Assembly (NCBI RefSeq): GCF_001270965.1 | Contig: NZ_LGIA01000150.1 | Location: forward strand, 1 to 64,000 | DNA: 64,000 nucleotides | DNA from: Sunxiuqinia dokdonensis | Lineage (GTDB): Bacteria > Bacteroidota > Bacteroidia > Bacteroidales > Prolixibacteraceae | Reading direction: 5' to 3' | Shown: positions 17,305 through 49,221 of the stretch, in pieces | Numbering within the stretch: the first letter of the stretch is position 1 | Layout: every line of letters begins with the position of its first letter | The notes under the pieces: model-generated | Told to the model about the DNA's origin: nothing | What the model saw: only the letters and a program-made list of their open reading frames with translations | Databases searched by the model: none | Translations under genes and position numbers: made by a program

Positions 17305-17369
17305 TATCTAAACTTTGAAATCATATATCTAAAATTGATATCAGTGACTTTGTTGATGGTTTAATTTTA
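17305..17369 (+). promoter_or_regulatory. Predicted HTCS operator-promoter 1 (GH43-GH67-GH43/GH8 genes)
   Basis: Two TATCTAAA half-sites start at 17305 and 17326 (21 bp apart). A -7 element TAATTTTA starts at 17362, exactly 36 bp after the second half-site. The same geometry occurs at three other places in the locus. Leader to the GH43 start is about 250 bases. The protein presumed to bind is the HTCS encoded at 28306-32247. Confidence 0.65.
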
Positions 17370-17416
17370 CGATTGTTAAAGTTTTGAAATAACCTTAAAC
17401 CTGACTTAAATTCATT

Positions 17417-17554
17417 ATGAAAACCTATCCGGTAAAAAAAGTTCCTCCTATTTATCATGTTATTCCTGACGGTCACCACGATTTCAACGTTTGGAAAGAT
17501 AGCCAGTGCAAATTTGTACACTTGCTTTTTAAGCTAGTTGTCACTCCGGAGTAA
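17417..17554 (+). CDS. Possible 45-codon leader peptide gene
   Basis: An uninterrupted frame of 45 codons starting MKTYPVKKVPPIYHV and ending LVVTPE-stop, lying inside the leader between operator-promoter 1 and the GH43 gene. Its ATG is 47 bases after the -7 element, close to the 41 bases seen for the real GH5-GH43 gene at operator-promoter 2. Both starts are preceded by the same 11-mer AACCTGACTTA. No signal peptide and no recognised family. It may be a regulatory leader peptide, a small protein or the stub of a lost gene. Confidence 0.3.
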   Translation: MKTYPVKKVPPIYHVIPDGHHDFNVWKDSQCKFVHLLFKLVVTPE

Positions 17555-17623
17555 GTCTGTGGTCAAAAATCCATTCAAAAGATATTAAGTGTTTGATTTT
17601 GAAAATATTAAATTTAGTTAGAG

Positions 17624-19381
17624 ATGAAAAGAGTAAATTTAGGTGGACACAGGTCCTTAAAAAGAAGGCCAGTTGGTTTGTTGTTCGTTTTTATGAGTCT
17701 GGTCACCCTTGCAGGATTTAGTCAAAATAAAAATGTGCCTGTGTTTACCCAAGCTGTTTATCAAGGCGACGATCAGGTATATAAAGACAATCCATTGAAG
17801 GCCGATGAGTTTTACAACCCCATTTTGCAAGGTTGTTATCCCGATCCGGCTATCACGCGAAAAGGCGATGATTATTTTTTGGTGAGCTCGTCGTTTGCCA
17901 TGTTTCCGGGCGTACCAATCTTTCATTCTAACGATTTGGTAAACTGGAAACAAGTTGGGCATGTGCTCGAACGCACTTCACAGTTGAAAGTCCACGACAC
18001 GGGTATCAGCGCCGGGGTTTATGCGCCAGCCATCAAATACAACCCCTTAAACGACACGTTCTACATGATTACCACGCAGTTTGCCGGTGATTTTGGGAAT
18101 ATTGTGGTGAAGACCAAAGATCCTTTTCAAGGGTGGAGCGATCCGATCAAATTGAAATTCAACGGCATCGATCCGTCGATGTTTTTTGATGAAGATGGAA
18201 AAGCTTATGTGGTGCATAACGATGCGCCCGACCAGGGAAAAGAGCTGTACAACGGACACCGGGTGATTAAAATTTGGGACTATGATTTGGAAAATGACCA
18301 GGTGATTGCCGGAACCGACAAAATTATTGTCGATGGCGGAGTTGACCTGTCCAAAAAACCCATCTGGATTGAAGCTCCTCATATTTACAAGAAGAATGGC
18401 AAATACTATTTGATGTGTGCCGAAGGAGGAACCGGAGGCTGGCATAGCGAGGTGATTTTTAGTAGCGACAATCCCCGGGGACCGTATAAACCCGCGCCTA
18501 GCAATCCGATTCTGACCCAGCGCCACTTCCCCAGAGACCGCGCCAATAAAGTTGATTGGGCTGGTCATGCCGATATTGTAGAAGGTCCCGATGGAAAATA
18601 TTACGGCGTATTCCTGGCCATTCGGCCCAATGAAGACGACATGGTGAATACCGGCCGTGAAACCTTTATTCTGCCTGTCGATTGGTCGGGCGAATTTCCA
18701 GTGTTCGAAAACGGCTTGGTTCCTATGGAGCCTAAACTGAAAATGCCTGAGGGGGTGGAAAACAAAACCGGGCAAGCCGGTTTCTTTCCCAACGGCAACT
18801 TCACCTTCACCGAAAATTTCGATTCTGAAAAACTCGATTATCGCTGGATCGGCTTACGCGGGCCCCGCGAAGATTTTATGACGATAACAAAAAAAGGCTT
18901 GCAAATCAAACCTTTCCCGGTGAATATCAAAGAGGTGAAGCCGACTTCGACCTTGTTCCACCGTCAACAACATAAAATCTTTTCGTTTGAAACGACACTG
19001 GATTACAAACCAGCTTCGGAAAAGGATTTGGCCGGTATTGTGACGCTTCAAAACGAGCATTCGAACTATGTTTTTGGAATCACCAAAAAAGGGGACGAAT
19101 ACTATTTGTTGTTGGAACGTAATGAAAAGCCACGAAGAAGCCGGCAGGTGGAATCGAAAATTGTTGCCAGCACCGTGATCGACATCAAAAATCCGGTTCA
19201 TTTAAAAGTTCAGGCCAATGGCAACGACTATGAATTTAGCTATTCAACCAACGGAACCGATTTTGTAAATTTGGGTGGTACCGTTTCCGGAGATATCCTT
19301 TCAACCAATGTGGCTGGCGGTTTTACCGGTTGTTTGCTGGGCTTGTACGCAACATCGGCCAACGATGCAATTCCTGAATAA
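17624..19381 (+). CDS. Secreted GH43 beta-xylosidase/alpha-arabinofuranosidase
   Basis: Removes xylose or arabinofuranose from xylo-oligosaccharides. 585 residues: signal peptide (about 1-33), GH43 five-bladed propeller (about 60-385), C-terminal beta-xylosidase-type concanavalin-like domain (about 395-585). The GH43 triad is visible: base Asp74 (CYPDPAI), pKa-modulating Asp183 (GIDPS) and acid Glu250 (IWIEAPHIYK). A paralogue of identical length lies at 32721, but that one is a lipoprotein. First gene after operator-promoter 1; GH67 and GH43/GH8 follow on the same strand. Exact specificity (xylose against arabinose) cannot be read off. Confidence 0.9.
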   Translation: MKRVNLGGHRSLKRRPVGLLFVFMSLVTLAGFSQNKNVPVFTQAVYQGDDQVYKDNPLKADEFYNPILQGCYPDPAITRKGDDYFLVSSSFAMFPGVPIFHSNDLVNWKQVGHVLERTSQLKVHDTGISAGVYAPAIKYNPLNDTFYMITTQFAGDFGNIVVKTKDPFQGWSDPIKLKFNGIDPSMFFDEDGKAYVVHNDAPDQGKELYNGHRVIKIWDYDLENDQVIAGTDKIIVDGGVDLSKKPIWIEAPHIYKKNGKYYLMCAEGGTGGWHSEVIFSSDNPRGPYKPAPSNPILTQRHFPRDRANKVDWAGHADIVEGPDGKYYGVFLAIRPNEDDMVNTGRETFILPVDWSGEFPVFENGLVPMEPKLKMPEGVENKTGQAGFFPNGNFTFTENFDSEKLDYRWIGLRGPREDFMTITKKGLQIKPFPVNIKEVKPTSTLFHRQQHKIFSFETTLDYKPASEKDLAGIVTLQNEHSNYVFGITKKGDEYYLLLERNEKPRRSRQVESKIVASTVIDIKNPVHLKVQANGNDYEFSYSTNGTDFVNLGGTVSGDILSTNVAGGFTGCLLGLYATSANDAIPE

Positions 19382-19518
19382 GTTGTATGGCGTTGGATTC
19401 AGTATTTTTCATCATGGCGAATCCCCACAAATCCATTCATCCTGATAGCCATAGGTGGAGAACTGAATCAGATTTTATTGATTCAATTTTTTAGGAAGAC
19501 GACCAAAAACTGAAAGCT

Positions 19519-21597
19519 ATGAAAACCATTTTGAGTTTCGTTATCTTGTTTTTTCTTGCGCTTGGCTTAAATGCCGATAATGGTCACCAGCTTTGGCTTC
19601 GGTCAAAAAGCAGCGTGCCGGTACAGGTGATTTGCAAAAAAAGTTCGGAAACCCTCGCCATCGCCAAACAAGAGTTACAGCAGGCTTGGCAGGGTGAAGC
19701 CGGACAAACAGTTAGGCTGGAGCTGATTCGCGACAAACAGATTGCAGGTGACGGTTTCAGGCTTTCAGCCGAAGGCATTCAGGCCACTACCGAATCGGGA
19801 ATTTTATACGGGGTGTACGAACTGTTGCGACGCCAGCAAACCGGGAAGAAAATCGGGGAAGAGCTGGTCAATCCCACTTGGGAACACCGGCTACTGAACC
19901 ATTGGGACAATCTGGATGGAACAGTTGAGCGTGGTTATGCCGGCCTTTCCATTTTTTGGCGTGCAGGAAATGACTCGCTTGCCGTGACCGAAGAAGATCT
20001 GAAATTGTGGGAAGAATACGCACGCGCCAACGCGTCCATTGGTATCAACGGCTCTGTTTTGAATAACGTAAACGCTTCACCCAAAATATTGTCTGCGGCA
20101 TATCTGAGCCGGGTCAAAGCCATTGCCGATGTGCTGCGTCCCTATGGCATCAAAGCTTACTTATCCATCAACTTTGCGTCGTCCATGGTTATTGGGGGGC
20201 TGTCAACTGCCGATCCGCTGAATGCGGAAGTGGTTGACTGGTGGAAAGCCAAGGCGAAGGAGATTTATACATTGATTCCCGATTTTGGTGGTTTTTTGGT
20301 GAAGGCCAACAGCGAAGGACAGCCGGGGCCGCAGGATTTTGGGCGCAATCATGTTGACGGTGCCAATCTGTTGGCCGACGCACTGAAACCGCATGGCGGA
20401 TTGGTAATGTGGCGTGCATTTGTGTACAACCCATCCGACGAGGACCGCGCCAAACAAGCTTATAACGAGTTTATGCCTTTTGACGGGCAGTTTCGCGACA
20501 ACGTCATTATTCAGGTGAAAAACGGGCCGATTGATTTTCAGCCTCGTGAACCTTTCAGCCCGCTGTTTGGTGCAATGAAACAAACGTCGGTTATGGCCGA
20601 ACTTCAAGTGACACAAGAATATCTTGGGCATTCGGTTCACCTGGTTTTTCTGGCCCCCATGTGGGAGGAATTTCTGCACAGCGAAACCTGGCAGGAAGGC
20701 GAAGGAAGCACTGTTGCCCGAACGACTGACGGGAGTTTGTTTGAACAGAAACACACGGCCATCGCCGGCGTAGCCAACATTGGGCTGGATGATAACTGGT
20801 GTGGGCACGATTTTGCCCAGGCCAACTGGTATGCGTTTGGCCGGCAGGCGTGGGACAGCTCGCTATCGAGCGAACAAATTGCCGATGAATGGTTAAAGCT
20901 GACATTCAACCAGCCGGCGCCAGAAGAAATGGATGCGGAAACCGTTCTGCCCATGGAGTGGGATCTGAATTTTCTAAAGCCGGTGAAACAGATGATGCTT
21001 AACAGTCACGAAGCCGCCGTTGATTATATGATGCCATTGGGCTTGCATCATATTTTTGCGGCACACCATCATTATGGGCCGGGCCCTTGGTGGGCGCCCA
21101 AAGGTATGCGCAAAGACTGGACGCCACCTTATTATCATCAGGCCGATACTGAAGGAATTGGCTTTGACCGAACCGCGAGTGGAAGTGATGCGGTAAGCCA
21201 GTATCATGAACCGCTGAAGGCCCATTTTAGCAATCCCGAAACTTGTCCGGAAGCGCTTCTTTTATGGTTTCATCACCTTCCGTGGGATTATCAAATGAAA
21301 AACGGACGGACGCTATGGGATGAGCTTTGTTACCGCTACGATCATGGGGTTCAACAAGTGCGGCAGTTTCAGAAAATTTGGGACCAGGCGGAACGTTATG
21401 TTGATCCAGAGATTTTTGGCAGGGTTCAGCATAAACTGCGCGAGCAAAGCCTGAATGCGGTGGAGTGGAAAGACGCTTGCCTGCTCTATTTTCAGCAGTT
21501 TAGCCAGCGAGCGATTCCGTATGACCTGGAACGTCCATTGAATAATCTGGATGATTTAATTGAAAAAGACGAACGCACCATTCGTGCTTATGAGTAG
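19519..21597 (+). CDS. GH67 alpha-glucuronidase
   Basis: Releases (4-O-methyl)glucuronic acid from the non-reducing terminal xylose of short xylo-oligosaccharides. 692 residues, normal for GH67, with a signal peptide (about 1-19), so probably periplasmic. The candidate acid Glu266 lies in VKANSEGQPGPQDFGR. The paired bases are Asp339 (NGPIDFQPREP) and Glu367 (ELQVTQEYLG), with the same 28-residue spacing as in characterised GH67 enzymes. It complements GH115 in this locus, which acts on internal side chains. The 137-base gap to GH43 has no terminator, so co-transcription is likely. Confidence 0.96.
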   Translation: MKTILSFVILFFLALGLNADNGHQLWLRSKSSVPVQVICKKSSETLAIAKQELQQAWQGEAGQTVRLELIRDKQIAGDGFRLSAEGIQATTESGILYGVYELLRRQQTGKKIGEELVNPTWEHRLLNHWDNLDGTVERGYAGLSIFWRAGNDSLAVTEEDLKLWEEYARANASIGINGSVLNNVNASPKILSAAYLSRVKAIADVLRPYGIKAYLSINFASSMVIGGLSTADPLNAEVVDWWKAKAKEIYTLIPDFGGFLVKANSEGQPGPQDFGRNHVDGANLLADALKPHGGLVMWRAFVYNPSDEDRAKQAYNEFMPFDGQFRDNVIIQVKNGPIDFQPREPFSPLFGAMKQTSVMAELQVTQEYLGHSVHLVFLAPMWEEFLHSETWQEGEGSTVARTTDGSLFEQKHTAIAGVANIGLDDNWCGHDFAQANWYAFGRQAWDSSLSSEQIADEWLKLTFNQPAPEEMDAETVLPMEWDLNFLKPVKQMMLNSHEAAVDYMMPLGLHHIFAAHHHYGPGPWWAPKGMRKDWTPPYYHQADTEGIGFDRTASGSDAVSQYHEPLKAHFSNPETCPEALLLWFHHLPWDYQMKNGRTLWDELCYRYDHGVQQVRQFQKIWDQAERYVDPEIFGRVQHKLREQSLNAVEWKDACLLYFQQFSQRAIPYDLERPLNNLDDLIEKDERTIRAYE

Positions 21598-21703
21598 GAG
21601 GCAGGTCTTATTCAGTAAAAAATAAGATACGACGGCTATAAAGAATGACAGCCTTTTTGTGGAGTAGTCCTTCCATCTAAGTAAAACGATCAAACCCAAT
21701 AAA

Positions 21704-24241
21704 ATGAAACATACCTATTCACCACTGCTAACACTAATTGTCTTAATTATGATCTCGGGTGCCGCAGCTTTTGGCCAGAACCCATTTATTCGCAACCAGT
21801 TTACAGCCGATCCGTCAGCACGGGTTTTTAACGGCAAAGTGTATGTTTTTCCCTCGCACGATATTCCTGCTCCCGAGGGTAAAAATCTTCGAAAAGACTG
21901 GTTCTGTATGGAAGATTACCATGTGTTTTCGTCGGAGAATTTGACGGATTGGACTGATCATGGCATGATCGTCAGCCAGTATGATGCTCCCTGGATCGAC
22001 TCCACATCGTACAGCATGTGGGCGCCGGACTGTATTGAGCGCAACGGCAAGTATTATTTTTACTTTCCGTCCAACACCAATGAAGTGGACGAAAACGGGC
22101 GAAAAGGTTTTGGAATTGGTGTGGCGGTGGCCGACAAGCCCGAAGGGCCGTATGTCACCCAAAAGGAAAACATTAAAGGGATCAAAGGAATCGATCCGAA
22201 CGTGCTGATTGACAAAGACGGACAAGCATACATTTATTGGTCACACGGTCATATTTTTGTCGCCAAATTGAAAGAAAACATGCTGGAGCTGGATTCGGAA
22301 CCGATGATTATTCCCAATCTTCCCGAAAAAGGATTGAAAGAAGGGCCTTGGGTTTTCGAGCGAAACGGCCTGTATTATCTGACTTTTCCGCATGTTGAAA
22401 ACAAAACGGAGCGGCTGGAATATGCGATTGGCGACAATCCGATGGGGCCATTTAAAATGACCGGCGTGATTATGGACGAGTCGCCAACCGGTTGTTGGAC
22501 CAACCATCATTCTATTCTGGAATATAAAAATCAGTGGTACCTGTTTTATCATCACAATGATTACTCACCAACTTTTGATAAAAATCGTTCCGTTCGGGTC
22601 GACAGCTTGTTTTTTAATGCCGACGGCACCATTCATAAAGTTGTTCCGAGCCTGCGCGGTGTTGGACTGACAAAAGCGACAAACAACATTGAAATCGATC
22701 GTTATAGTGCCATCAGCAACGCCGGAGCAAGAATCGATTTTCTGGATGCCGCCAATCCTTTCAAGGGTTGGAAAACCATTTTCGAAAGCAAAGACGCTTG
22801 GATTCAGTACGATGCGGTTAGGTTTGGCGATAAGCCGCTGAATTCAATTCATATCAAGGCGCTGGCCAATCAAGGTGGCACGTTGCAAATTTGTCTGAAT
22901 CATGCGGGCGGACCAATTGTAGCAGAAGTGAGTATTCCTGAAAGTCCTGAATGGAAAGTCATTCGATCGCCCATTTTAAGACAATTGTCCGGAGTTCACA
23001 ACCTGGTGGTTGTCAATAAGGATGATCGCCCGGTTGAGGTCGACTGGATCCGGTTTGAAAACCAAACCGGCGCATATTACTCCGGCCAATATCCCAATCT
23101 TTTCCTGAAGGCCGGCTACAGCCAGCAGGAAGTCGATGCAAAACTGGCCAAAGCCTATCATGATCTTTTTGAAGGGCCCAACCGGGTGTATTTTGAGGTG
23201 GGCGACTCAATGGCTTACGTATCGGATTTGAAGAATCATGATGCCCGGTCCGAAGGACTTTCCTATGGCATGATGGTGGCTGTTCAGTTGGACAAGAAGG
23301 AGGTTTTTGACCGGATTTGGCGATGGACAAAACACTACACCCAGCAACAGGGAGGCCCGCGCGATAGCTATTTTGCCTGGAGCATCAACCCCGAGACAAT
23401 GGTTAAAAACTCAGAAGGTTCGGCTTCGGATGGCGAGCTGTTTTTTGTGACTACACTTTTGTTTGCTTCGAACCGCTGGAGAAATGACACGGGCATTGAT
23501 TATTATGCCGAAGCCCGTAGAATTCTGGATGCCATGTGGGCAAAAGATGGCACTGGCGGAATCCACCACGTGATCAACTTGGAACACAAACAAATCAGTT
23601 TTGTGCCCGAGGGCGGCGGATACGAGTGGACAGATCCGTCATATCATGTTCCGGCATTTTTGGAGTTTTGGGCCGACTTTGCCAACGATGGTCACGAGCA
23701 GTTTTACCGGGATTGTGCCGATACTTCGCGCGTGTTTTTACACCGAGCCTGCCACCCGGAAACCGGCTTAAATTACGATTACGCCAATTTTGACGGGACC
23801 GCGCATCCGACACGCTGGATGCCCGCCGGATTCCGTTACGATTCGTGGCGTGTTCCCTTGAATATTGCCATGGACTACGTGTGGTTTGGCAAAGACAAAG
23901 CATGGCAGGAAGATTATGCAGCGCGGTTTCAGGGATTTTTGCGTTCGCAAGGCATCAACGAATTTGTTGATCAATACAACCCCGATGGCACGACGCCCGA
24001 GTTTATTCTGCAAGCCGGAGGATTCCAAAAATTGCGGCATTCACTGGGACTGATTTCAACAGCTGCAACGGTTTCACTCATCGATGAGGTGGATCCGGAC
24101 TATGATTTTGTGCATAAACTTTGGAACGAAAAACTGGAACCATACGAAGACGGCTACTTCGATCCGTATTTTGATGGACTCATGTACCTGTTTAGTTTGA
24201 TGCAACTAAGCGGAAACTATCAGGCAATTCTTCCGGAATAG
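21704..24241 (+). CDS. GH43-CBM6-GH8 fusion enzyme
   Basis: 845 residues: signal peptide (1-24); GH43 propeller (about 26-325) with Asp36, Asp164 and Glu213 as triad; a CBM6-like beta-sandwich (about 330-452, ending in VEVDWIRFE); then a complete GH8 domain (about 460-845). The GH8 part resembles reducing-end xylose-releasing exo-oligoxylanases: GPNRVYFEVGDSMAYVSDLKN, acid Glu517 in RSEGLSYGM and base Asp713 in FRYDSWR. One chain would thus trim oligosaccharides from both ends. The GH43 part is similar in motifs to the cytoplasmic GH43 at 62499. The reading frame is continuous, so the fusion is not a frameshift artefact. Confidence 0.9.
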   Translation: MKHTYSPLLTLIVLIMISGAAAFGQNPFIRNQFTADPSARVFNGKVYVFPSHDIPAPEGKNLRKDWFCMEDYHVFSSENLTDWTDHGMIVSQYDAPWIDSTSYSMWAPDCIERNGKYYFYFPSNTNEVDENGRKGFGIGVAVADKPEGPYVTQKENIKGIKGIDPNVLIDKDGQAYIYWSHGHIFVAKLKENMLELDSEPMIIPNLPEKGLKEGPWVFERNGLYYLTFPHVENKTERLEYAIGDNPMGPFKMTGVIMDESPTGCWTNHHSILEYKNQWYLFYHHNDYSPTFDKNRSVRVDSLFFNADGTIHKVVPSLRGVGLTKATNNIEIDRYSAISNAGARIDFLDAANPFKGWKTIFESKDAWIQYDAVRFGDKPLNSIHIKALANQGGTLQICLNHAGGPIVAEVSIPESPEWKVIRSPILRQLSGVHNLVVVNKDDRPVEVDWIRFENQTGAYYSGQYPNLFLKAGYSQQEVDAKLAKAYHDLFEGPNRVYFEVGDSMAYVSDLKNHDARSEGLSYGMMVAVQLDKKEVFDRIWRWTKHYTQQQGGPRDSYFAWSINPETMVKNSEGSASDGELFFVTTLLFASNRWRNDTGIDYYAEARRILDAMWAKDGTGGIHHVINLEHKQISFVPEGGGYEWTDPSYHVPAFLEFWADFANDGHEQFYRDCADTSRVFLHRACHPETGLNYDYANFDGTAHPTRWMPAGFRYDSWRVPLNIAMDYVWFGKDKAWQEDYAARFQGFLRSQGINEFVDQYNPDGTTPEFILQAGGFQKLRHSLGLISTAATVSLIDEVDPDYDFVHKLWNEKLEPYEDGYFDPYFDGLMYLFSLMQLSGNYQAILPE

Positions 24242-24311: not shown

Positions 24312-24376
24312 TGTCTAAATTTAAAACTCATTTATCCATTATCGAACAGCAGTTTAGCTTGGAGGACTTATCATTG
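24312..24376 (+). promoter_or_regulatory. Predicted HTCS operator-promoter 2 (GH5-GH43 gene)
   Basis: Half-sites TGTCTAAA at 24312 and TATCCATT at 24333 (21 bp apart), with TATCATTG (one mismatch to TAnnTTTG) starting at 24369, 36 bp after the second. It lies 41 bases before the start codon of the GH5-GH43 gene. Confidence 0.6.
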
Positions 24377-32247: not shown

Positions 32248-32720
32248 CTTTAGTCTCATCCATACGATCAGTTCAGTTTCTTCAAAAACAGTCTGTACCT
32301 GTTGGCTATGGGGCGTAGTCCTTCATTTTTTGAATTCAATTCTTTTTTTTTTTGGAGCAGAATTGCTCACCGATTCATGTATTCGAATTGGTCCTTGTTT
32401 TTGTCCTCTTTTCCTGATTTTCGATGCCTGATGGCTGTTTCATTCCATCAGAATTTCAGCCGGGCAGCCGTTTAAATGCTCACACTTCTTTTGGTGAAAA
32501 TTCTTATCCATTTTTAAAATAATGACTTTAAGTGGTTGGTAGTCAGTCTCTGTTCTGCTCCGTTCTGAAATGTATCTAAAATTGAAAATCAAATATCCAA
32601 AATCAAAAGTTTTTCGGGGCATCTCCACATACTTTTGGTTTCAACGATCGTGGAAATCTGATTCAAAATATTGGGATGGGCTTTTCACATCGATTAAACT
32701 AATTCTAACTGGTCGCCTAA
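32248..32720. other. Intergenic region between HTCS and the xus operon
   Basis: 473 bases without a gene. It holds a 7-bp hairpin CTGATGG/CCATCAG (32428-32451) with no good T-run, and operator-promoter 3 (32573-32637). The short frames here look spurious. Confidence 0.6.
32573..32637 (+). promoter_or_regulatory. Predicted HTCS operator-promoter 3 (GH43-xus-GH10 operon)
   Basis: TATCTAAA at 32573 and TATCCAAA at 32594 (21 bp apart), with TACTTTTG, a perfect TAnnTTTG, starting at 32630, 36 bp after the second half-site. It lies 83 bases before the start of the GH43 lipoprotein gene. Confidence 0.7.
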
Positions 32721-34478: not shown

Positions 34479-34693
34479 CCATCTATATACAATGATCTAT
34501 GAAAAGTAATTATTAACCAAAAACTATGAACTTATGATGAAAGAATTTTTCAGTGAGATTTTATTATTTCATTCCCTCCTTTTTAGAGTTTGTATGGATT
34601 CCGGGGGAGACGGGTTCATGATTGTCGCCAGAGTTGGCAGTTGAGATCCTTCAGGAATTTTTGAACTTTTTATCAATTTAATTTGAGAACGTA

Positions 34694-37852: not shown

Positions 37853-37863
37853 TATTGAAAACA

Positions 37864-39795: not shown

Positions 39796-39839
39796 TCCAA
39801 AGTGAGTTAAAGTATTGTATAACAATAAATGAATAAACA

Positions 39840-42707
39840 ATGAAACATATACAAACAAGATTCATTTTATTTGCAATGTTTGTTCTCTTCCCCTTTCTGA
39901 TGGAAGCACAAACATTGGCAGAAAATGAAACTGATTCGCTAAATACCGATAAAGACCAGCTGGTGCAGGTATCTTATCGTAAGGTAGCACAAAGTGACCT
40001 TCTGGGAGGTGTTTCGGTCGTCAATCTTGAAGAGTTGATGAAGAAGAACTATAACACGTATAGTTTGGACAATATGCAAGGCTATATTGGCGGTTGGAAT
40101 GGAAACTCTTTGTGGGGTATGGGCGAATACCTGGTACTGGTTGATGGAATTCCACGCGATGCCAACAACGTGGTGCCAACTGAAATTGAGCAGATCACAT
40201 TTTTGAAAGGCGCTTCTGCCGTGGTGCTTTATGGTAGCCGTGCTGCCAAAGGGGTGGTTTATATTTCCACAAAGCGCGGAACAACCGGACCGCTGCAAAT
40301 TAATGTTCGGGCCAACACAGGCTATCATGTGTCAAAGAGCCATCCCAAATATTTAGGTTCAGCCGAGTATTTGACCCTGTATAACGAAGCGCTGATTAAT
40401 GATGGAACTGATCCGGATCGAGTTTGGGCCGGACAGCTTGGTGGTACAACGCAGGAAGAGATTTATAAGTTTGCTTCGGGCAACAATCCTTACCGTTTTC
40501 CGAATGTCGATTTCTATTCATCCGATTATCTGAAGGAAGCTTACAACCGTACGGATGTAACGACTGAGATTTCAGGTGGAAACGAACGCGCCCATTTCTA
40601 TACAAACATTGGTTATTACAATCAGAAAGATGTATTTGCGTTTGGCGAAGCGGAGAATAACAATACCAGCCGCCTGAATATTCGTGGAAACATCGACTTG
40701 AAGTTAAACGATGCCATCAGTGCATACATCAATGCCAATGCCACGTTTTATGATGCCAAAAGCGCCAATGCCAGCGGTGATAATTACTGGGCATCGGCTG
40801 CCAACCTGCGTCCGAACCGGGTAGCTCCCTTAATTCCATTGAGCTATATTGATCCGAATGCTTTAAGTTCGTGGAACCTGGTCAACAATAGTCGCAACAT
40901 TATTGGCGGTGAATATTTTCTGGGTGGTACGCAAACGGAGTTGAATAATATATTTGCCGACTATTATGCAGGCGGCTACAGCAAATGGACCAGTCGTCAG
41001 TTCCAGTTTGATACGGGAATCGATTTCGATTTGGCCAGTGTACTGGAAGGACTGTCTTTTCATACCCAGTTTGCGGTTGATTATGCCACTTCATACAGCA
41101 CTTCGTACAACAACAGCTATGCGGTTTTTGCGCCATCATGGTACAACTACAATGGTACCGATGTGATTGCCGGACTAACGAAGTATGGTAATGACGAAAG
41201 TTCGGGCGTGCAGAATATTGGTGGCAGTACCAGCCGGCAAACCATTGCTTTTTCTGGTTACTTCAACTACGAGACTTCCATCAACAAGGCACATCATTTC
41301 AACGCGATGTTGATTGCTGCTGGTTACCAGCAGACCATGTCGGAGGTGTATCACCGCACCAGCAATGCCAACCTGGCCCTGCAGCTGGGATACAACTATT
41401 TGGGTAAATATTATGCCGATTTCGGTTTAGCCGGAGTACATTCGGCCAAGTTGCCCGAAGGTAACCGAAGCGCCCTTTCTCCTTCACTTACCTTAGGATG
41501 GAAAATCAGCGAGGAAGACTTCCTGGCCAGCTCATCGGTAGTTGATGATTTGGTACTGAGCGTTTCAGCAAGTAGCCTGAATACCGATTTGGATATTGAA
41601 GAATATTACATGTACGAAGCAAACTTCAACCAGTCTGACGGTGCCTGGTGGGGTTGGTACGATGGTGCGGTAGAGCGTTCAACCAATTCACGGCGCGGCT
41701 CCAATCCAGAATTGTCCTTCATTAAGCGCAAAGAACTTTCGGCCAACCTGAAGGCTTCGTTGTGGAACAAAAAGGTGATTGCCAATGCGTCGGTTTTTGT
41801 CAATACCATGGAAGGTTTGATCATTGAGCCCATGACGCTGTATCCGAACTATTTCTTTACCTACTGGCCCGATGCTTCTTTCATTCCAAATGTGAACTAC
41901 AACAACGATAAGCGTACCGGATTTGATTTCAGCGTGAACTACAACAAGCAAATCGGCGAAGTTGACTTCACCCTGGGTGTTGCCGGAACTTATTATACAA
42001 CCGAAGCAACGCAGCGCGACCAAATTTATGATTACGATTACCAAAAATATGAGGGACGTCCTATTGATGGAATTTGGGGACTTCAAGCCGACGGATTTTT
42101 CCAAAGCGCGGAAGAAGTTGCGAACTCTCCGGAGCAGACCTTCGGTGGTACCGTAAAAGCAGGAGATATCAAATACATTGATCAGAATGACGACAATTTG
42201 ATCGACGAAAAAGATATCGTGTATCTGGGCCGCGGCGGTTGGAGTGGTGCGCCATTGACGACGGGTGTGAACCTGACGGCAAAATGGAAAAACTTCACCT
42301 TGTTCGCCTTGGGTACCGGTAACTTCGGCGCCTATGCCATGAAAAACAGTTCGTACTATTGGGCTTTTGGCGATCGTAAATATTCCGAAATCGTACGCGA
42401 TCGTTGGACCGAGGAAACCAAGGCAACAGCCACTTACCCAAGTTTGACAACCAAAAGCGGAAGCAACAACTTCCGGGACTCTGACTTCTGGATGTATAAA
42501 ACGGATCGTTTCAATCTGGCTAAGGTGCAGCTCACCTACGATTTACCGAAGAGCGTGTTGACGAATTTCCTGTTTCACGAAATTTCGACTTATGTCAGCG
42601 GATCCAACTTGTTGACCATCTCTGAAGAACGCGATGTTCTGGAGTTGAATACAACGAGCGCTCCTCAAACACGATTCTATAATATCGGTATCAAAGCCGT
42701 ATTTTAA
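39840..42707 (+). CDS. xusC: Second SusC-like transporter, without the carboxypeptidase-like N-terminal domain (XusC-like)
   Basis: 955-residue TonB-dependent receptor. The signal peptide (about 1-23) leads almost directly into the plug; the 80-residue carboxypeptidase-regulatory-like domain found in the first SusC is missing. A TonB-box-like region (LVQVSYRKVAQSDLLGGVSVV) and the plug signature (LVDGIPRDANNV, FLKGASAVVLYGSRAAKGVVYISTK) are present, and the barrel ends in YNIGIKAVF. It is 45 bases after xusB and followed by its own SusD, so the operon encodes two transporter pairs, probably for different oligosaccharide sizes or decorations (inference). Confidence 0.92.
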   Translation: MKHIQTRFILFAMFVLFPFLMEAQTLAENETDSLNTDKDQLVQVSYRKVAQSDLLGGVSVVNLEELMKKNYNTYSLDNMQGYIGGWNGNSLWGMGEYLVLVDGIPRDANNVVPTEIEQITFLKGASAVVLYGSRAAKGVVYISTKRGTTGPLQINVRANTGYHVSKSHPKYLGSAEYLTLYNEALINDGTDPDRVWAGQLGGTTQEEIYKFASGNNPYRFPNVDFYSSDYLKEAYNRTDVTTEISGGNERAHFYTNIGYYNQKDVFAFGEAENNNTSRLNIRGNIDLKLNDAISAYINANATFYDAKSANASGDNYWASAANLRPNRVAPLIPLSYIDPNALSSWNLVNNSRNIIGGEYFLGGTQTELNNIFADYYAGGYSKWTSRQFQFDTGIDFDLASVLEGLSFHTQFAVDYATSYSTSYNNSYAVFAPSWYNYNGTDVIAGLTKYGNDESSGVQNIGGSTSRQTIAFSGYFNYETSINKAHHFNAMLIAAGYQQTMSEVYHRTSNANLALQLGYNYLGKYYADFGLAGVHSAKLPEGNRSALSPSLTLGWKISEEDFLASSSVVDDLVLSVSASSLNTDLDIEEYYMYEANFNQSDGAWWGWYDGAVERSTNSRRGSNPELSFIKRKELSANLKASLWNKKVIANASVFVNTMEGLIIEPMTLYPNYFFTYWPDASFIPNVNYNNDKRTGFDFSVNYNKQIGEVDFTLGVAGTYYTTEATQRDQIYDYDYQKYEGRPIDGIWGLQADGFFQSAEEVANSPEQTFGGTVKAGDIKYIDQNDDNLIDEKDIVYLGRGGWSGAPLTTGVNLTAKWKNFTLFALGTGNFGAYAMKNSSYYWAFGDRKYSEIVRDRWTEETKATATYPSLTTKSGSNNFRDSDFWMYKTDRFNLAKVQLTYDLPKSVLTNFLFHEISTYVSGSNLLTISEERDVLELNTTSAPQTRFYNIGIKAVF

Positions 42708-42732
42708 TGAAAGAAAAAATAAGAATTAAGTT

Positions 42733-44508
42733 ATGAAAAATATATCAATACTTTTGGTTCTTGTACTTCTGTTTTCATCGTGCGACGATTTGTTCGAACC
42801 CGCGCTCGAGAATAACCGGGGGCTCGAAGCTATGTACAACGAACCTACTTATGCGCAGGGCATTTTAGCCAATGGTTATCTCCTGCTTCCCTACTCATCG
42901 GCACCCAATAGCGATGTGGCAACTGATGATGCGGTAACCAACGACAATGCCAATGACTATCTGGCCATGGCTACGGGCTCGTGGACTGCAAATAGTAACC
43001 CGATGTCGCAATGGCAAGCGCGTAGAAACGCCATTCAATACCTGAATTTGTTCCTGGCCAATGTCGATCAGGTGGTTTGGAGTAAAGACGAAGTGATCAA
43101 TACCATGTATTACGATCGCTTAAAAGGCGAGGCCCTTGGTTTGCGTGCATTACAAATGTATCATTTGTTGCTGACGCATGGTGGATGGACACAAGATGGC
43201 AGGCTGCTGGGTGTACCGGTACTGACTGAGCCTGAAAATGCGGCTTCAGACTTTAACTTGCCGCGGAATACCTTCCAGGAGAGTGTCGATCAGATTATGG
43301 CTGATGCCGAAGACGCCATTGAGTTGTTACCACTTGACTATGGCGACATTGCCAATGCGCAGGTTCCGCAGAAATACCAGGCTTTGGGTGTAACCAATGC
43401 CGGCGACTACAACCGCGTGAATGGAAATCACATGCGGGGACGTATTACCGCCCGGATTGTAGAAGCCGTGCGTGCACAGGTTGCCTTGTTGTCGGCCAGC
43501 CCGGCATACAGCGCAGGAACCGAAGTTACCTGGGAAGACGCTGCAAACCATGCCGCTACTGTGCTCGACCGCATAGGTGGAGTGAGTGGCCTGGCCGAAA
43601 ATGGCGGAACCTGGTATGTGAAAGAAGAAGTGGACAACCTGGCTTCAGGAGCAACGCCTGCCGAAATCATCTGGAGAGGTGATGTTGGGCAGAGCATTAC
43701 CCTCGAAGCCGACAATTTTCCTCCTTCGCTGTTTGGCCTGGGCCGCGTTAATCCAACACAAAACCTGGTCGATGCATTTCCAATGGTAAATGGGTACCCG
43801 ATTTCCGATCCGGCCAGCGGTTTTGATCCTGCGAATCCTTATGCAGATCGCGATCCACGCTTGTCAAAGTACATCGTTTTAAATGAAAGCGTGCAAGGAC
43901 CGAACAACAGCGTCATTGTAACCGGAACTTACGGAACGAACAACGACGCCCTTAACCGCGAGAGTGGACGATCTACCCGCACCGGCTACTATTTGCGTAA
44001 GTTGCTGCGTAAGGATTGTAACCCGAACCCGGAGTTTAATACCGAGCAAAAACACTACAACGCACGCATCCGTTATACCGAGATTTTCCTGGCATACGCC
44101 GAAGCAGCCAACGAAGCCTGGGGACCCACAGGAACGGGTGGAAATGCTTACTCAGCATACGATGTGATTAAGGCCATTCGCGAAAGAGCGGGCATCGGAA
44201 TCGATAATGACGATGAATACCTGGACATGGTGAACGGCGATAAAGACGCGATGAGACAATTGATCAGAAATGAGCGTCGTCTGGAACTTTGTTTCGAGAA
44301 CCATCGCTTCTGGGATCTCCGTCGTTGGAAAGTAGCCAACCTGAATGAAACCGCGCGTGGTTTGCAAATTGAAAAGCCAGGTAGTACATTGATCTATACA
44401 CCGATCAATGTCGAAGCCAGAGACTACAAAGATTATATGTATCATGGCCCAATTCCTTATGGCGAAGTTCAGAAATGGACCAACCTGGAACAAAATGCGG
44501 GCTGGTAA
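42733..44508 (+). CDS. xusD: Second SusD-like lipoprotein (XusD-like)
   Basis: 591-residue SusD homologue starting 25 bases after xusC. Lipoprotein signal with Cys17 (LLFSSCDD). The SusD core is visible: LKGEALGLRALQMYHLLLTHGG in the first half and the C-terminal block LIRNERRLELCFENHRFWDLRRWKV with the ending LEQNAGW. It shows only family-level resemblance to XusB. It should pair with XusC. Confidence 0.92.
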   Translation: MKNISILLVLVLLFSSCDDLFEPALENNRGLEAMYNEPTYAQGILANGYLLLPYSSAPNSDVATDDAVTNDNANDYLAMATGSWTANSNPMSQWQARRNAIQYLNLFLANVDQVVWSKDEVINTMYYDRLKGEALGLRALQMYHLLLTHGGWTQDGRLLGVPVLTEPENAASDFNLPRNTFQESVDQIMADAEDAIELLPLDYGDIANAQVPQKYQALGVTNAGDYNRVNGNHMRGRITARIVEAVRAQVALLSASPAYSAGTEVTWEDAANHAATVLDRIGGVSGLAENGGTWYVKEEVDNLASGATPAEIIWRGDVGQSITLEADNFPPSLFGLGRVNPTQNLVDAFPMVNGYPISDPASGFDPANPYADRDPRLSKYIVLNESVQGPNNSVIVTGTYGTNNDALNRESGRSTRTGYYLRKLLRKDCNPNPEFNTEQKHYNARIRYTEIFLAYAEAANEAWGPTGTGGNAYSAYDVIKAIRERAGIGIDNDDEYLDMVNGDKDAMRQLIRNERRLELCFENHRFWDLRRWKVANLNETARGLQIEKPGSTLIYTPINVEARDYKDYMYHGPIPYGEVQKWTNLEQNAGW

Positions 44509-44533
44509 TTGTTAATGATAAATATTGAAAAAT

Positions 44534-45640
44534 ATGAAACAGTTTAAGTTTTTATGGATATTAGCTGTCGGACTCGTGACATTAACGATGGTATCTTGCG
44601 AAAATCAGGATATTGAGTTTCCGGACTTCGACTACAGCACCGTGTATTTTGCATACCAGTATCCCGTGCGCACCGTTGTGTTGGGCGAGGATATCGTGGA
44701 CAATACACTTGACAACGAGCATAAAGTAAAGATTTATGCCACCATGGGAGGTGTTTACGAAAATACACAGCGCATTGATATTGACATTGCGGTGAACAAC
44801 GGCTTGACGAACAACTTGTTTTTCGGAGATAATACGCCGGTCCTGCCCATGCCTTCAAACTACTACACCTTGGCGGCCGACCAAATTACAATGGACGGCA
44901 CCCTCCAGGATGGTGTTGAAGTGCAGCTGACCGACGCTTTTTTTGCCGATCCGCTGGCCTTGACCAATACTTATGTGATTCCTTTGCAAATGACAAACGT
45001 GTCCAACGCCGACTCCATCCTTTCCGGAGTTGCCAAGTTCGATGGCGCTGTCAGAGGCAATATTGCAGACTGGGATGTTCAGCCCAAGGATTATGTGCTC
45101 TACTGCGTGAAATTCATCAACCCCTGGCATGCCAACTATTTACGTCGCGGCGAGGATGTGATCGTTAAGGATGGGGTGACTTCAACGGTGGAGCGGCACG
45201 CCGATTATGTAGAGAACGACGAAGTGGTTCATTTGAGCACGGTGGCATTAAACGCGCTGCAGTTTCCGATGGATTACACCAGTAAAGAAGGTCACGACTT
45301 GAATCTGAAAGTGAAATTGAATTTTTCTGAAAATCAGGAAGTGTCGGTTGCACCGTTTGAGTCATCTTATCAACTGAACGACACGGTGCGGGTCTATAAC
45401 ATCACCGCAGCCGGTAGTGGCGAGTTCGTTAAAGATGGAGAAAAGAAAAGTTGGGGAAATGAAGACCGGGACGCCTTGTATCTGGACTATGATATCAGTT
45501 ATGAAGTGGAAATCAAGTATCCGATAGCAGGTCTGCCCGACGATGTACAGCAGGTATCCTATAGCACCGTCGATACATTGGTTGTGCGTGACCGGGGTGT
45601 GGCCATGGAAACATTTTCGCCCTCGTATGTAGTTAACTAA
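44534..45640 (+). CDS. xusE: XusE-like surface lipoprotein (DUF1735 type)
   Basis: Surface glycan-binding-like lipoprotein in the position of XusE, between the second SusD and the GH10. The preferred ATG is at 44534, 25 bases after xusD; it yields a lipoprotein signal ending in MVSC. The N-terminal part (about 25-160) has the DUF1735-type beta-sandwich pattern (YPVRTVVLGED, NEHKVKIYATMGGVYENTQRIDIDIAV, YVIPLQMTNVSNADSIL). The rest, including PKDYVLYCVKFINPWHANYLRRG, fits the second domain often found with DUF1735. Its role in xylan binding is inferred from position and family. Confidence 0.82.
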   Translation: MKQFKFLWILAVGLVTLTMVSCENQDIEFPDFDYSTVYFAYQYPVRTVVLGEDIVDNTLDNEHKVKIYATMGGVYENTQRIDIDIAVNNGLTNNLFFGDNTPVLPMPSNYYTLAADQITMDGTLQDGVEVQLTDAFFADPLALTNTYVIPLQMTNVSNADSILSGVAKFDGAVRGNIADWDVQPKDYVLYCVKFINPWHANYLRRGEDVIVKDGVTSTVERHADYVENDEVVHLSTVALNALQFPMDYTSKEGHDLNLKVKLNFSENQEVSVAPFESSYQLNDTVRVYNITAAGSGEFVKDGEKKSWGNEDRDALYLDYDISYEVEIKYPIAGLPDDVQQVSYSTVDTLVVRDRGVAMETFSPSYVVN

Positions 45641-45659
45641 CCGCTTAAATTGAGATACT

Positions 45660-47810
45660 ATGAAATATTTAAATAAATTTTGGCTGGGTGCTGTTGCTGT
45701 ATCGCTGTTGGCATCTTGCGTTGAAGACAGCTTGCTTGACTACCCGGTCGAAAAGCCGGAAAGCCTTGCCAAGCTGGAATACCTGAATGATTACGATGTA
45801 TTGAAATCGTATGTTGACCGCAGCGCCAATCCCGACTTTAAGTTGGGAGCGGGCGTGTCGGTCGATGGGTTTAACAACAAGGGAGTCGTTTATAGTCACA
45901 TCGTCTCCAACTTCGACGAGGTGACAGCCGGCTGGGAAATGAAGCACGGCGGCATTGTGCAGAATGACGGAAGTCTAAACCTGGCAAGGGTTTCGAACTT
46001 CATCACGACCGCCCAGGAAGCCGGAATCACCATCTACGGACATACCCTGGCCTGGCATGCCAACCAGAATGCCGAATATCTGAACGGCATCATAGCTGAT
46101 CAGGAAATTGAAACTGATCCGGGTGATGGCAACAACGCTTTGCATGCTACCACACCAAATGCGAATGCCAATATTTGGGACTGGCAGCTTGAATACGTGC
46201 TGCCTACGCCATTAACACAGGGCGTGGAATATACCATAACCATGCGTGCAAAAGCCTCAAGCCCATTTACGGTAGCCTTTTGGCGGACTGATGGTTCGTC
46301 AACCAATTACGGCCCGGATATGGCATTTGGAGAAAGCTGGGGCGATGTTTCCGTCACATTTACTCCGACTATGAATGCGACCAAATTGCAGTTTTGTTTC
46401 GGAACATTTGCCGGTGATCTTTATTTCGATGACATGGTGCTTACCGCGAGTGGTTCCGAAGAGAATTTAATTGAAAACGGAGCTTTCGATGAAGAAACGC
46501 TGAGCGGATGGCAAAAACCAAGTTGGCATGGGTACACCTTTTTGGTTGAACCTGTTGCCGCTGGACCGGCTAAATGGTGGACAAACCTGGTAACCAACAG
46601 CGATGTCGAAGGTGATGATGTTTCCAGCTTCTTCGCTACAGAGATCGCAGTTGGTCCAGATCCAGCTACAATTGGTGCTGAAGGTACAGGAGCCGATGGT
46701 GTGGGAAGAGCAATTGTTGTTCAATCGGGAGATAACCCCGTTAATGCATGGGATACCCAGTTCTTTGTAAAAGCACCCCAGCAACTGCTAGCAGGTCAGG
46801 CTTATCGGTTCAGCATGAAGGTTAAAGCGGATAAACCAGCCACGATCGAGTCTCAAGCGCACAATAATCCCGGGGGCTATTTACACTGGTCTATGGTCGG
46901 TAGCCCGTCAGTTACTACCGAATGGCAGGAATATACCAATTCCGGAATCATTTCAGCCGAGCAGGCAGGCGCGAATGGCATGAACACCATCGCTTTTAAT
47001 CTTGCTGTTTTTTCAGAAGCCAATACGTATTATTTTGATGATATTGTATGGGAGATCGAGGAGTCGGGCAATAAAAGACCACTGACACCCGAAGAAAAGG
47101 CCGATACCCTTTCCTGGGCTTTGGAGAACTGGATCGCCGGAACGCTGGAAGTGACCAAAGAATACGTGAAAGCCTGGGATGTGGTGAACGAGCCCATGGA
47201 TGATGGCAATCCGTATGAATTGAAAACAGGTGTTGGTAAAACAGATATGGCTGCTGATGAATTCTACTGGCAGGATTACCTGGGCAAAGACTATGCGGTG
47301 ATGGCTTTCAACCTGGCCCGCCAATATGGTAGCCCGGATGATATCCACTTCATCAACGACTACAACCTGGAATACAACATCGATAAATGTAAAGGTTTGA
47401 TTCAGTATGTTGAATACATCGAAGCTGCAGGAGCACAGGTCGATGGCATTGGTACGCAAATGCACATCAACGTCAATTCCGATAAGGACAAAATCGTTGA
47501 GATGTTCGAGCTGCTGGCTGCTACCGGCAAGCTGATCAAAGTGTCGGAACTGGATATGGGTGTTGGTGTTCCAACCTCAGAAGCGACGGATGAGCACTAC
47601 ATCGCCCAGGCCGAAATGTACCAGTTTGTGGTTGAGAAATACTTTGAAATTATTCCGGCCAATCAGCGTTACGGTATCACCATTTGGAGCCCCTTGGACA
47701 GCCCAACAGGTTCCGGCTGGAGAGCTGGCGAGCCGATCGGCTTGTGGACCGAAGGTTACTACCGCAAACGGGCTTATGCCGGTTTTGCTGATGGACTTTC
47801 AGGAAATTAA
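45660..47810 (+). CDS. GH10 endo-xylanase lipoprotein with two binding modules inserted in the barrel
   Basis: Surface endo-1,4-beta-xylanase of the Xyn10C type. 716 residues: lipobox LLASC with Cys20; first part of the GH10 barrel (about 45-150, ending near AWHANQNAEYL); an insertion of about 320 residues (about 150-470) that contains two CBM4/CBM22-like beta-sandwiches, each ending in YFDDMVL or YFDDIVW; then the rest of the barrel with acid/base Glu511 (DVVNEPMD) and nucleophile Glu630 (VSELDMG). This interrupted-GH10 design is known for Bacteroidota xylan systems. It generates the oligosaccharides taken up by the Xus pairs. Terminator 29 bases downstream. Confidence 0.94.
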   Translation: MKYLNKFWLGAVAVSLLASCVEDSLLDYPVEKPESLAKLEYLNDYDVLKSYVDRSANPDFKLGAGVSVDGFNNKGVVYSHIVSNFDEVTAGWEMKHGGIVQNDGSLNLARVSNFITTAQEAGITIYGHTLAWHANQNAEYLNGIIADQEIETDPGDGNNALHATTPNANANIWDWQLEYVLPTPLTQGVEYTITMRAKASSPFTVAFWRTDGSSTNYGPDMAFGESWGDVSVTFTPTMNATKLQFCFGTFAGDLYFDDMVLTASGSEENLIENGAFDEETLSGWQKPSWHGYTFLVEPVAAGPAKWWTNLVTNSDVEGDDVSSFFATEIAVGPDPATIGAEGTGADGVGRAIVVQSGDNPVNAWDTQFFVKAPQQLLAGQAYRFSMKVKADKPATIESQAHNNPGGYLHWSMVGSPSVTTEWQEYTNSGIISAEQAGANGMNTIAFNLAVFSEANTYYFDDIVWEIEESGNKRPLTPEEKADTLSWALENWIAGTLEVTKEYVKAWDVVNEPMDDGNPYELKTGVGKTDMAADEFYWQDYLGKDYAVMAFNLARQYGSPDDIHFINDYNLEYNIDKCKGLIQYVEYIEAAGAQVDGIGTQMHINVNSDKDKIVEMFELLAATGKLIKVSELDMGVGVPTSEATDEHYIAQAEMYQFVVEKYFEIIPANQRYGITIWSPLDSPTGSGWRAGEPIGLWTEGYYRKRAYAGFADGLSGN

Positions 47811-47839
47811 CATGGCTTGATTTGAAATAGGTAATGAAA

Positions 47840-47877
47840 GGGGCAGTCTGTAGTGGATTGCCTCTTTCTTTTTTCCG
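47840..47877 (+). terminator. Terminator of the xus-GH10 operon
   Basis: GGGGCAGTC pairs with GATTGCCTC (nine pairs with wobbles) around a seven-base loop, followed by a T-rich tail (TTTCTTTTTT). Located 29 bases after the GH10 stop. Confidence 0.7.
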
Positions 47878-48146: not shown

Positions 48147-48248
48147 TTCCAACCCGAATCCTGAAACTGCGACCGAAGGGAGTCCTGATAGAATCGGGAA
48201 AACCCTGAAACCTCATGCCTGACAAGCCTTTCAGCCTGCCGAACCACG

Positions 48249-48521
48249 CCAGCTAACACACGGGAATGACCTGCTAAAAGACGGAAACCACTTGCTAAAT
48301 GATGGGGATAGCCTGCTAAAGGACGGAAATCGCCTGCTAAAACCCGGAAATTGTTTGCTAAAACCCGGAAATCGTCTGCTAAAACACAGAAATCGCCTGC
48401 TAAAACCCGGAAACTGTTTGCTAAATCACGGAAATCGCCTGCTAAAACCCGGAAATTGTTTGCTAAAAGACAGAAATCACTTGCTAAAACCCGGAAATCG
48501 TCTGCTAAAGGACGGTCAAAG
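48249..48521. repeat. 13-unit tandem array of a 21-bp repeat
   Basis: Thirteen contiguous 21-bp units with consensus CCTGCTAAA-ACCCGGAAATCG. Twelve keep GCTAAA at the same phase; the first is degenerate (AGCTAACAC). There are no spacers, so it is not a CRISPR array. The period of 21 keeps two plus frames open, giving artefactual heptad-repeat proteins. Confidence 0.95.
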
Positions 48522-48653
48522 TTTGCAGAATTTACCGGATGCCTTCCTATTGGGGGCCCACAACATGCGACAAGAAGCCAGCTCCCGGCTAAGCGGGCCC
48601 ACCCTCCGGCTAATGATCGGTTTAAGCCTCACTTCAACATGGGAATGGATCAC

Positions 48654-48771
48654 ACAAAAAGTAAAATCCGGCTGATAAGCCAACGCATAATACTATTTGG
48701 AAAATCAGCCTGCTTTTTTTGTGCTTGCTCATCAATCTCAAGTTTAAGTCTACCCAATGATAAATTGATCC
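48654..48771. repeat. 118-bp direct repeat, copy 1
   Basis: Begins ACAAAAAGTAAAATCCGG and ends near AATTGATCC. About nine in ten positions match copy 2 at 49034-49150. This copy lacks the left arm of the hairpin that precedes copy 2. Confidence 0.9.
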
Positions 48772-49015
48772 GTCAAATTGGCTCTGCCGCAAGCCAACCC
48801 GCTAATATCCGACGAAAGTAGGTTTAACTCAATTAAATGAGGGAACAAGAGAACCAGATGGTGCCTATTCGGGAGCGGCCTATTTTTATCAAAAGTGGAA
48901 TCAAACGAAAAGCTTAGTGCAGACGGGAAGTTCCGACGACAGGAGGAAATCACCCGCCGAACTTAGCTTTTCGGAAGATGGAGCTTGCAGATAAAAATCA
49001 GCCTTGACTTTTTTG

Positions 49016-49150
49016 TTTACTTTTTGTGTTAAGACAAAAAGTAAAATCCGGCTGATAAGCCAACGCATTAGATCATTTGGAAAGTCAGCCTGCTTTTTTG
49101 TCCTTGCTCATCAATCTCAAGTTTAAGTCTAACCAATGATGAATTGACCC
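49016..49150. repeat. 118-bp direct repeat, copy 2, with a 12-bp hairpin at its left end
   Basis: The repeat proper runs 49034-49150. Its first 12 bases form the right arm of a perfect hairpin (TTTACTTTTTGT at 49016-49027 and ACAAAAAGTAAA at 49034-49045). Its right end touches operator-promoter 4. Confidence 0.88.
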
Positions 49151-49156
49151 CAATTG

Positions 49157-49221
49157 TATCTTAAATTGTAAATCAAATGTCTCAATTTTAAATGAATTTG
49201 GATGTTGCAACTTTACTTTTG
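49157..49221 (+). promoter_or_regulatory. Predicted HTCS operator-promoter 4 (GH30-GH2-CE15-GH115 operon)
   Basis: TATCTTAA at 49157 and TGTCTCAA at 49178 (21 bp apart), with TACTTTTG, a perfect TAnnTTTG identical to the one in module 3, starting at 49214, 36 bp after the second half-site. It lies 79 bases before the GH30 start. Confidence 0.68.

Follow-up and report, generated by a model that had tools for sequence, protein, structure and literature searches.

The locus and its four modules

The stretch analysed here (the window) comprises the first 64,000 nucleotides of contig NZ_LGIA01000150.1 of Sunxiuqinia dokdonensis (assembly GCF_001270965.1) and holds a xylan locus in which a gene for a hybrid two-component system protein (HTCS) is accompanied by glycoside hydrolase, esterase and SusC/SusD genes. 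Four copies of a 65-bp module, all on the forward strand and starting at 17305, 24312, 32573 and 49157, precede the xylan genes (Table 1). Each module is very probably an activator-dependent promoter of one xylan regulon, with the HTCS as the predicted activator.

The modules consist of two similar half-sites in the same orientation, 15 nucleotides and an octamer resembling a -7 promoter element. Direct reading of the sequence confirmed all four and agreed exactly, in every module, with a preliminary description in the 21-bp distance between the half-sites, the start of the -7 octamer at +36 from the start of the second half-site, the four octamers named there, and TCA at positions 17-19 of the first half-site. 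The half-site formula of that description, T(A/G)TCT-AA, does not hold for the second half-sites, which fit T(A/G)TC(T/C) and read TATCC in two of the four. The octamers match the sigma-ABfr -7 element TAnnTTTG at 5 or 6 of 6 bases at all window sites, and the two half-sites of a module agree with one another at 8-15 of 18 bases (39 aligned sites, see below).

Table 1. Operator-promoter modules, HTCS domains and neighbouring features of the window
Feature	Position	Strand	Description
Operator-promoter 1	17305..17369	+	half-sites 17305-17325 TATCTAAACTTTGAAATCATA and 17326-17346 TATCTAAAATTGATATCAGTG; 15 nt; -7 element 17362-17369 TAATTTTA
Operator-promoter 2	24312..24376	+	half-sites 24312-24332 TGTCTAAATTTAAAACTCATT and 24333-24353 TATCCATTATCGAACAGCAGT; 15 nt; -7 element 24369-24376 TATCATTG
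Operator-promoter 3	32573..32637	+	half-sites 32573-32593 TATCTAAAATTGAAAATCAAA and 32594-32614 TATCCAAAATCAAAAGTTTTT; 15 nt; -7 element 32630-32637 TACTTTTG
Operator-promoter 4	49157..49221	+	half-sites 49157-49177 TATCTTAAATTGTAAATCAAA and 49178-49198 TGTCTCAATTTTAAATGAATT; 15 nt; -7 element 49214-49221 TACTTTTG
HTCS, 1316 aa	28297..32247	+	Pfam: Reg_prop propeller, Y_Y_Y, HisKA, HATPase_c, receiver, AraC-type HTH
HTCS receiver domain	31510..31845	+	Pfam, residues 1072-1183; SHIP at residues 1141-1144
AraC-type DNA-binding domain	31999..32244	+	HTH_18, residues 1240-1315; proposed half-site binder
Esterase gene remnant, 45 aa	17417..17554	+	Pfam Esterase type; between operator 1 and GH43
Gene group 1	17624..24241	+	GH43, GH67, GH43-CBM6-GH8 (Pfam); behind operator 1
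Gene 2	24418..27996	+	GH5-GH43 (Pfam); behind operator 2
Gene group 3	32721..47810	+	GH43, SusC, SusD, SusC, SusD, BT_3987-like/DUF5627, GH10-CBM4 (Pfam); behind operator 3
Terminator-like hairpin after group 3	47836..47868	+	15 pairs then TTTTTT; longest stem listed
Gene group 4	49301..63467	+	GH30, GH2, glucuronyl esterase (GCE_fung), GH115, SASA esterase, MFS transporter, GH10, GH43; behind operator 4

The layout within the window and in relatives

Agreement of the distances had been called hard to explain by chance. For the repeat and for the module this was upheld in the window: with weight matrices built on three sites, the held-out site ranked first in all four rounds, both for the 42-bp repeat and for the whole 65-bp module, against a background of approximately 127,850-127,900 window positions on both strands. 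The 36-bp rule is weak from four sites, and was supplied by the relatives. A strict IUPAC pattern with the full TAnnTTTG, run on the whole genome, returned sites 3 and 4 only (reversed control 0) and was rejected. A generic sigma-70 scan of 32200-50000, with 32 promoter-like sites versus 24.1 (standard deviation 4.2) expected, was not used.

The relatives were scanned with a matrix of the 42-bp repeat that held no -7 information. Forty stretches (39 that surround HTCS orthologues, plus one from the contig of the window itself) contained 32 matches scoring above 20 in 725 kb, versus a mean of 0.38 and a maximum of 2 for 50 column-permuted matrices. With nine named loci added (49 in total), 38 distinct matches lay outside the window, spread over 25 loci, and 35 of these carried a -7 element (TAnnTTTG, at least 5/6 bases) at exactly +36; any other offset had at most two, and the overall rate at other offsets was 10/1444. 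The comparison with related xylan loci, which had been proposed as a check, thus returned the same fixed distance. The alignment of 39 sites used 35 of the 38 matches, leaving out L158:5129, L006:13967 and L177:6709 (G, C and L numbers are our labels for genomes, contigs and loci); omitting the five own-genome sites left 34 for a relatives-only model.

Homologous promoters retain their own version of the -7 element while their spacer letters differ. The window, G003 and G020 share the octamer TATCATTG ahead of their GH5-GH43 gene, G005 has it ahead of a truncated GH5 gene, and the G028 counterpart of operator 2 has TATTATTG. Two tandem operators precede a single GH43 gene in G030 (L241:8287-8681), and within the same 400 bp a third, weaker and divergent operator (E=0.001) precedes a gene for a fasciclin-domain protein.

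Matches in the own genome

The genome of S. dokdonensis (4.96 Mb) was scanned with the sequence-only model from the 34 relatives' sites, none of which came from this genome. Seven matches had E<0.01: those at 32573 (E=3.7e-12), 24312 (3.4e-8), 17305 (5.8e-8), C160:17173-17236, 49157 (4.6e-7) and C150:76745, and a partial one at C150:64386-64437. The next, unrelated matches begin at E=0.05, so that the genome-wide matrix scan called for in the preliminary description found no scatter of equally good sites. All six of the strongest matches precede glycoside hydrolase or esterase genes. GH97, GH3 and two esterase genes lie behind C150:76745, on the window's contig but past the window, and an esterase, a 712-aa protein and a GH43 are encoded behind C160:17173-17236, on another contig. 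To the four promoters first proposed, the predicted regulon adds C150:76745, C160:17173-17236 and possibly C150:64386. This last, weak match stands before a minus-strand open reading frame (ORF) located where the window ends. It may be a conserved member of the regulon, as is suggested by partial matches of the same sort in both G003 and G020 and by a weak match to the matrix in G028 (L144:7199).

The 712-aa protein (L234:8085-10223), encoded between the esterase and GH43 genes of C160, has no Pfam match, and NCBIfam gave no match for it or the four other proteins searched alongside; it is a candidate new xylan enzyme or binding protein. Farther along the window's own contig (L179:666-7740) there are an ECF sigma factor, a FecR-type anti-sigma factor and a SusC-like gene, an arrangement that suggests another locus, under different regulation, next to the HTCS regulon.

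Operators occur together with the HTCS

Across 61 genomes (the own genome and 60 relatives), all 52 matches at E<=1e-4 came from 14 genomes, and these are exactly the ones with an orthologue of the HTCS (at least 46% identity; other listed matches had 27-36%). Training sites had come from 11 of these 14 and none from G000, G007 or G030. Of the genomes from the window's own genus, G003 and G005 carry orthologue and operator together; in G001, G002, G004 and G006 neither an orthologue of at least 46% identity nor an operator match at E<=1e-4 was found. Among 140 genomes of the family, with which the first set overlaps, 51 had both, 79 neither, 6 the orthologue only and 4 the operator only (Fisher P ~2e-26, relatedness uncorrected); G084, at 34% identity, had been struck from 58 listed genomes before orthologues were counted. 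Operator presence thus follows orthologue presence in both sets, which supports the reading of the modules as an HTCS regulon.

In four of the six orthologue-only genomes (G074, G130, G133 and G144) the matrix of all 39 sites finds a 65-bp match scoring 24-44 bits, versus a best score of 10.1 bits in 744 kb of other HTCS loci; with the repeat scored by itself, G133 is a marginal case (16.4 versus 15.2). G159 has the repeat at 30.6 bits with the -7 element at +37. There was no match in G141, where the contig ends inside the gene.

The operators lie upstream of polysaccharide-locus genes and are conserved with the orthologues. Near the HTCS the first genes after the sites are mostly GH43, GH5-GH43, GH30, GH97, SusC-like or esterase genes, the others including GH115, GH10, arabinofuranosidase and MFS transporter genes. 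Away from it, taking the longest ORF starting within 800 bp as the downstream gene, a hydrolase, esterase or SusC-like gene comes next in 16 of 19 matches (E<=1.2e-4, outside the first-fetched HTCS neighbourhoods). Two of the exceptions have no ORF nearby (G009:C3:16596) or one of 245 aa without Pfam match (G035:2406662). Five further matches outside the neighbourhoods, with E from 2.6e-4 to 1e-3 and not among the 19, are followed by genes for a GH97, a BD-FAE esterase, a SusC-like protein, a fasciclin-domain protein and a laminin-G-like protein. As several G003 contigs are short, some outside matches may lie in the same locus.

The HTCS and its own expression

Sensor, HisKA, HATPase_c, receiver and AraC-type helix-turn-helix domains are joined in one chain, and the C-terminal AraC domain that had been read from the translation was recovered by Pfam. 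The receiver contains SHIP, a form of the S/CHIP motif defined for HTCS receivers (PMC11253607). By sequence the protein matches PDB entries 4a2l, 12aw and 3v9f; among the best 25 of 182 NCBIfam matches there were only kinases and response regulators and nothing more specific. The nearest named orthologues are in a Paludibacter metagenome-assembled genome (63%) and in Prolixibacteraceae, Bacteroidia, Tannerella and Dysgonomonas records (51-52%). In the 13 orthologues L112-L124 the DNA-binding domain (identity to the window's 0.68-0.96) is better conserved than the sensor (0.44-0.92) in every case, and its helices differ in 15 paralogues.

In G130 (L296:3373-4206) and G133 (L297:16679-16743) the second half-site has TAGC, with a TAGA-type core, and the second of what we take to be the recognition helices of their HTCSs has changed from GYFSTVF to TYFGIVF. 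Operator core and recognition helix may thus covary. The two genomes belong to one genus and YFG is also found in L117 and L122, so that this is a weak lead.

The preliminary description had placed no module before the HTCS gene itself. In the window this stands, with the qualification that the gene behind site 2 is the immediate upstream neighbour of the HTCS, encoded on the same strand. A scan of 27900-28400, which covers the 300-bp gap between the two genes (27997-28296), found no terminator-like site, so that read-through from operator 2 could possibly give the HTCS positive feedback. In G005 (L147:15768-16470) operator 2 precedes a GH5 gene that stops after ~130 residues, just upstream of the HTCS, and in G012 (L150:1713) an operator lies ~0.5 kb upstream of the HTCS; in both the first gene after the site is the HTCS itself, at a gap of ~0.5 kb. 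The operator-2 module of G005 may now drive the HTCS.

Two other features of the window concern the gene groups. The esterase remnant behind operator 1 matches, in two separated pieces, the intact esterase of G028 (L142), and its longer piece matches the intact one of G003 (L237) as well; the G028 gene follows the same kind of operator. Operator 1 has outlived its esterase gene and now leads to GH43. The hairpin after group 3 is among 26 terminator-like sites in 32200-50000, versus a chance expectation of 20.5.

Proposed mechanism and alternatives

In the mechanism that we propose, xylo-oligosaccharides, an inducer suggested by the gene neighbours, would bind the periplasmic propeller of the HTCS, and the kinase would phosphorylate the fused receiver and so free the AraC-type domain for binding. 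Two such domains would then sit head-to-tail on one face of the DNA, on half-sites of consensus TATCtAAAaTTnAAAATCA two helix turns apart. The -33 box is expected at about columns 30-40 of the alignment. TTTG starts in that range in 4 of the 39 aligned sites, the window's four not among them, and the second half-site covers this place and ends 18 bp before the -7 element. The bound dimer may on this account replace the missing -33 contact and recruit the housekeeping sigma factor to TAnnTTT(G/A), with transcription presumably starting shortly after that element.

That another regulator travelling with xylan loci binds the modules, the HTCS being a mere neighbour, is very unlikely. A gene for a LacI-type protein does lie 8 kb past the window (C150, ~71.9-72.9 kb), and co-occurrence alone cannot separate two proteins that always travel together. 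LacI proteins, however, bind palindromes, and the HTCS alone had a helix-turn-helix match among the 33 window ORFs scanned with Pfam, which are not all of those listed. HTCSs are predicted to bind head-to-tail 21-bp repeats (PMC3878776), and the paired change of operator and HTCS helix in G130 and G133, weak lead as it is, points the same way. Repression by the HTCS at these sites, whether alone or combined with activation, is also quite unlikely. The HTCS BT2391 represses its genes, but it has the variant receiver motif FHIP, whereas the window's protein has the consensus SHIP, linked to inhibition that phosphorylation relieves (PMC11253607). The sites moreover do not overlap the -7 element but precede it, and TTTG is absent near -33 in most, which fits promoters dependent on an activator.

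Some modules are near-identical, spacer included, among them the pair in L177 and the ones in L142 and L178, as they would be if all sites were copies of one ancestral promoter whose shared spacing was inherited and says nothing of function. This we hold to be highly improbable: the spacer is almost free (0.03-0.32 bit in each of columns 40-57 of the 39 aligned sites), yet both distances are fixed. Sites were aligned because they fitted, and 35 of 38 did. Modules have also persisted after the next gene decayed, at window site 1 and in G005.

Several results weigh against activator-dependent promoters under the HTCS, or temper the evidence for them. Scored alone, the 23 bp after the repeat did not discriminate in the window (ranks 144, 3292, 8729 and 8840), and sites 1 and 2 each have two extra 5/6 matches to TAnnTTTG at offsets 21-59; the 36-bp claim, whose -7 part is inconspicuous on its own, therefore needed outside evidence. 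In the relatives, 24 of the 49 scanned loci gave no match above 20 bits, and three of the 38 matches misfit (L006 has its element at +37, L177:6709 has 4/6 bases at +36, and L158:5129 lies in an ORF with no -7 element). Because the window's matrix had served to find the training sites, it is partly circular that the model recovers the window sites; the scarcity of further matches in the genome is free of that circularity. Three operator-only genomes (G079, G084 and G088) have partial matches ending before the -7 element, and G152, 88% complete, has a full match and no detected orthologue. The remaining exception among the 19 outside matches, G027:C150, precedes a leucine-rich repeat protein and has no -7 element. 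Receiver identity is 0.63-0.96 in L112-L124 and above that of the DNA-binding domain in L003 and L008; with a receiver this well conserved, the conservation seen in the DNA-binding domain is no specific evidence.

A general spacing for HTCS activators

The 21 + 36 spacing may hold for HTCS activators across the Bacteroidota, irrespective of half-site sequence, with the second copy beginning ~36 bp ahead of the -7 element in place of a -33 box. We regard the chances of such a class-wide rule as even, the sequence evidence for it being moderate. In 59 loci around other HTCS-like proteins (1.13 Mb; two of these, L030 and L031, match the query only in kinase and receiver), 21 was the commonest period of tandem repeats, with 23 repeats at 12/16 matches versus 1-17 for other periods. 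Before genes, a -7 element lay at 35-38 in 10 of 40 repeats of periods 21-22 (one in L030) versus 6 of 175 of other periods (P=6e-5), and at a looser cut-off in 16/120 versus 25/661 (P=1.3e-4). Control offsets 24-27 and 45-48 showed no excess at periods 21-22 (2/40 and 1/40 versus 14/175 and 14/175). The ranges of period and offset were fixed after the repeat counts had been seen, which makes these P-values optimistic. A test on fixed cells of period and offset was discarded as smeared, with 4 in cell (21,36) versus 9 in cell (21,43), because the register of the repeats is not known. A segment search gave too few repeats, and best-window repeats were used instead.

HTCSs are a main class of switch for polysaccharide use in Bacteroidota. 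Dozens of related species share the layout, which goes together with a single sugar-sensing regulator, so that the genes probably under the control of that regulator can be read directly from the DNA. Two distances and a promoter anchor make a sharper search template than the repeat alone, one that isolates six or seven promoters in a 5-Mb genome, one of them on another contig. The template also makes a definite prediction for the contact between a membrane-bound activator and RNA polymerase where the promoter has no -33 box. If the spacing were general, the regulon of almost any HTCS would be readable from one genome, and the possible covariation in G130 and G133, a weaker lead, may offer a handle on the recognition code.

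Comparison with known systems

The 21-bp direct repeat that the preliminary description assigned to the HTCS stands, but as prior art: HTCS operators have been published as ~21-bp direct repeats, and the 2013 reconstruction, which predicted motifs for 16 of the 36 HTCSs of its model species, already proposed that HTCSs bind as dimers to one face of the DNA at half-sites two helix turns apart (PMC3878776). The present regulon resembles those of B. thetaiotaomicron (Ravcheev et al. 2013, PMC3878776) in its repeats, which average 21 bp there, in the one-face dimer proposed, in an HTCS beside SusC/SusD genes and in members outside the locus. The worked examples there are, unlike here, heparin, alpha-mannan and rhamnogalacturonan; no -7 distance was found in section 8 or the other passages of that paper compared. 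In B. xylanisolvens, one HTCS, BXY_29350, is required for expression of a multi-operon xylan locus and a second gene group (PMC4855328). Its role was shown by mutation, with no operator sequence found in the parts of that paper compared, whereas here there is an operator without a mutant.

The Bacteroides housekeeping promoter (PMC7366714) has a -7 TAnnTTTG and a -33 TTTG at variable spacing; the modules share the -7 element and have the second half-site where the -33 TTTG lies there. The SHIP motif and domain order are those of the HTCS in which the receiver controls DNA binding (PMC11253607; PDB 12aw, matched by sequence), a study whose compared parts concern the control of binding and not operator geometry. 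Full-text literature searches turned up no fixed distance from an HTCS repeat to a -7 element, which may still be in print. As far as these searches go, the kind of system is already known, and what is added is this regulon with a complete logo of the half-site, its members beyond the window and its target on another contig; to the same extent, the fixed spacing to a -7 element, with a half-site where the -33 box would be, is new.

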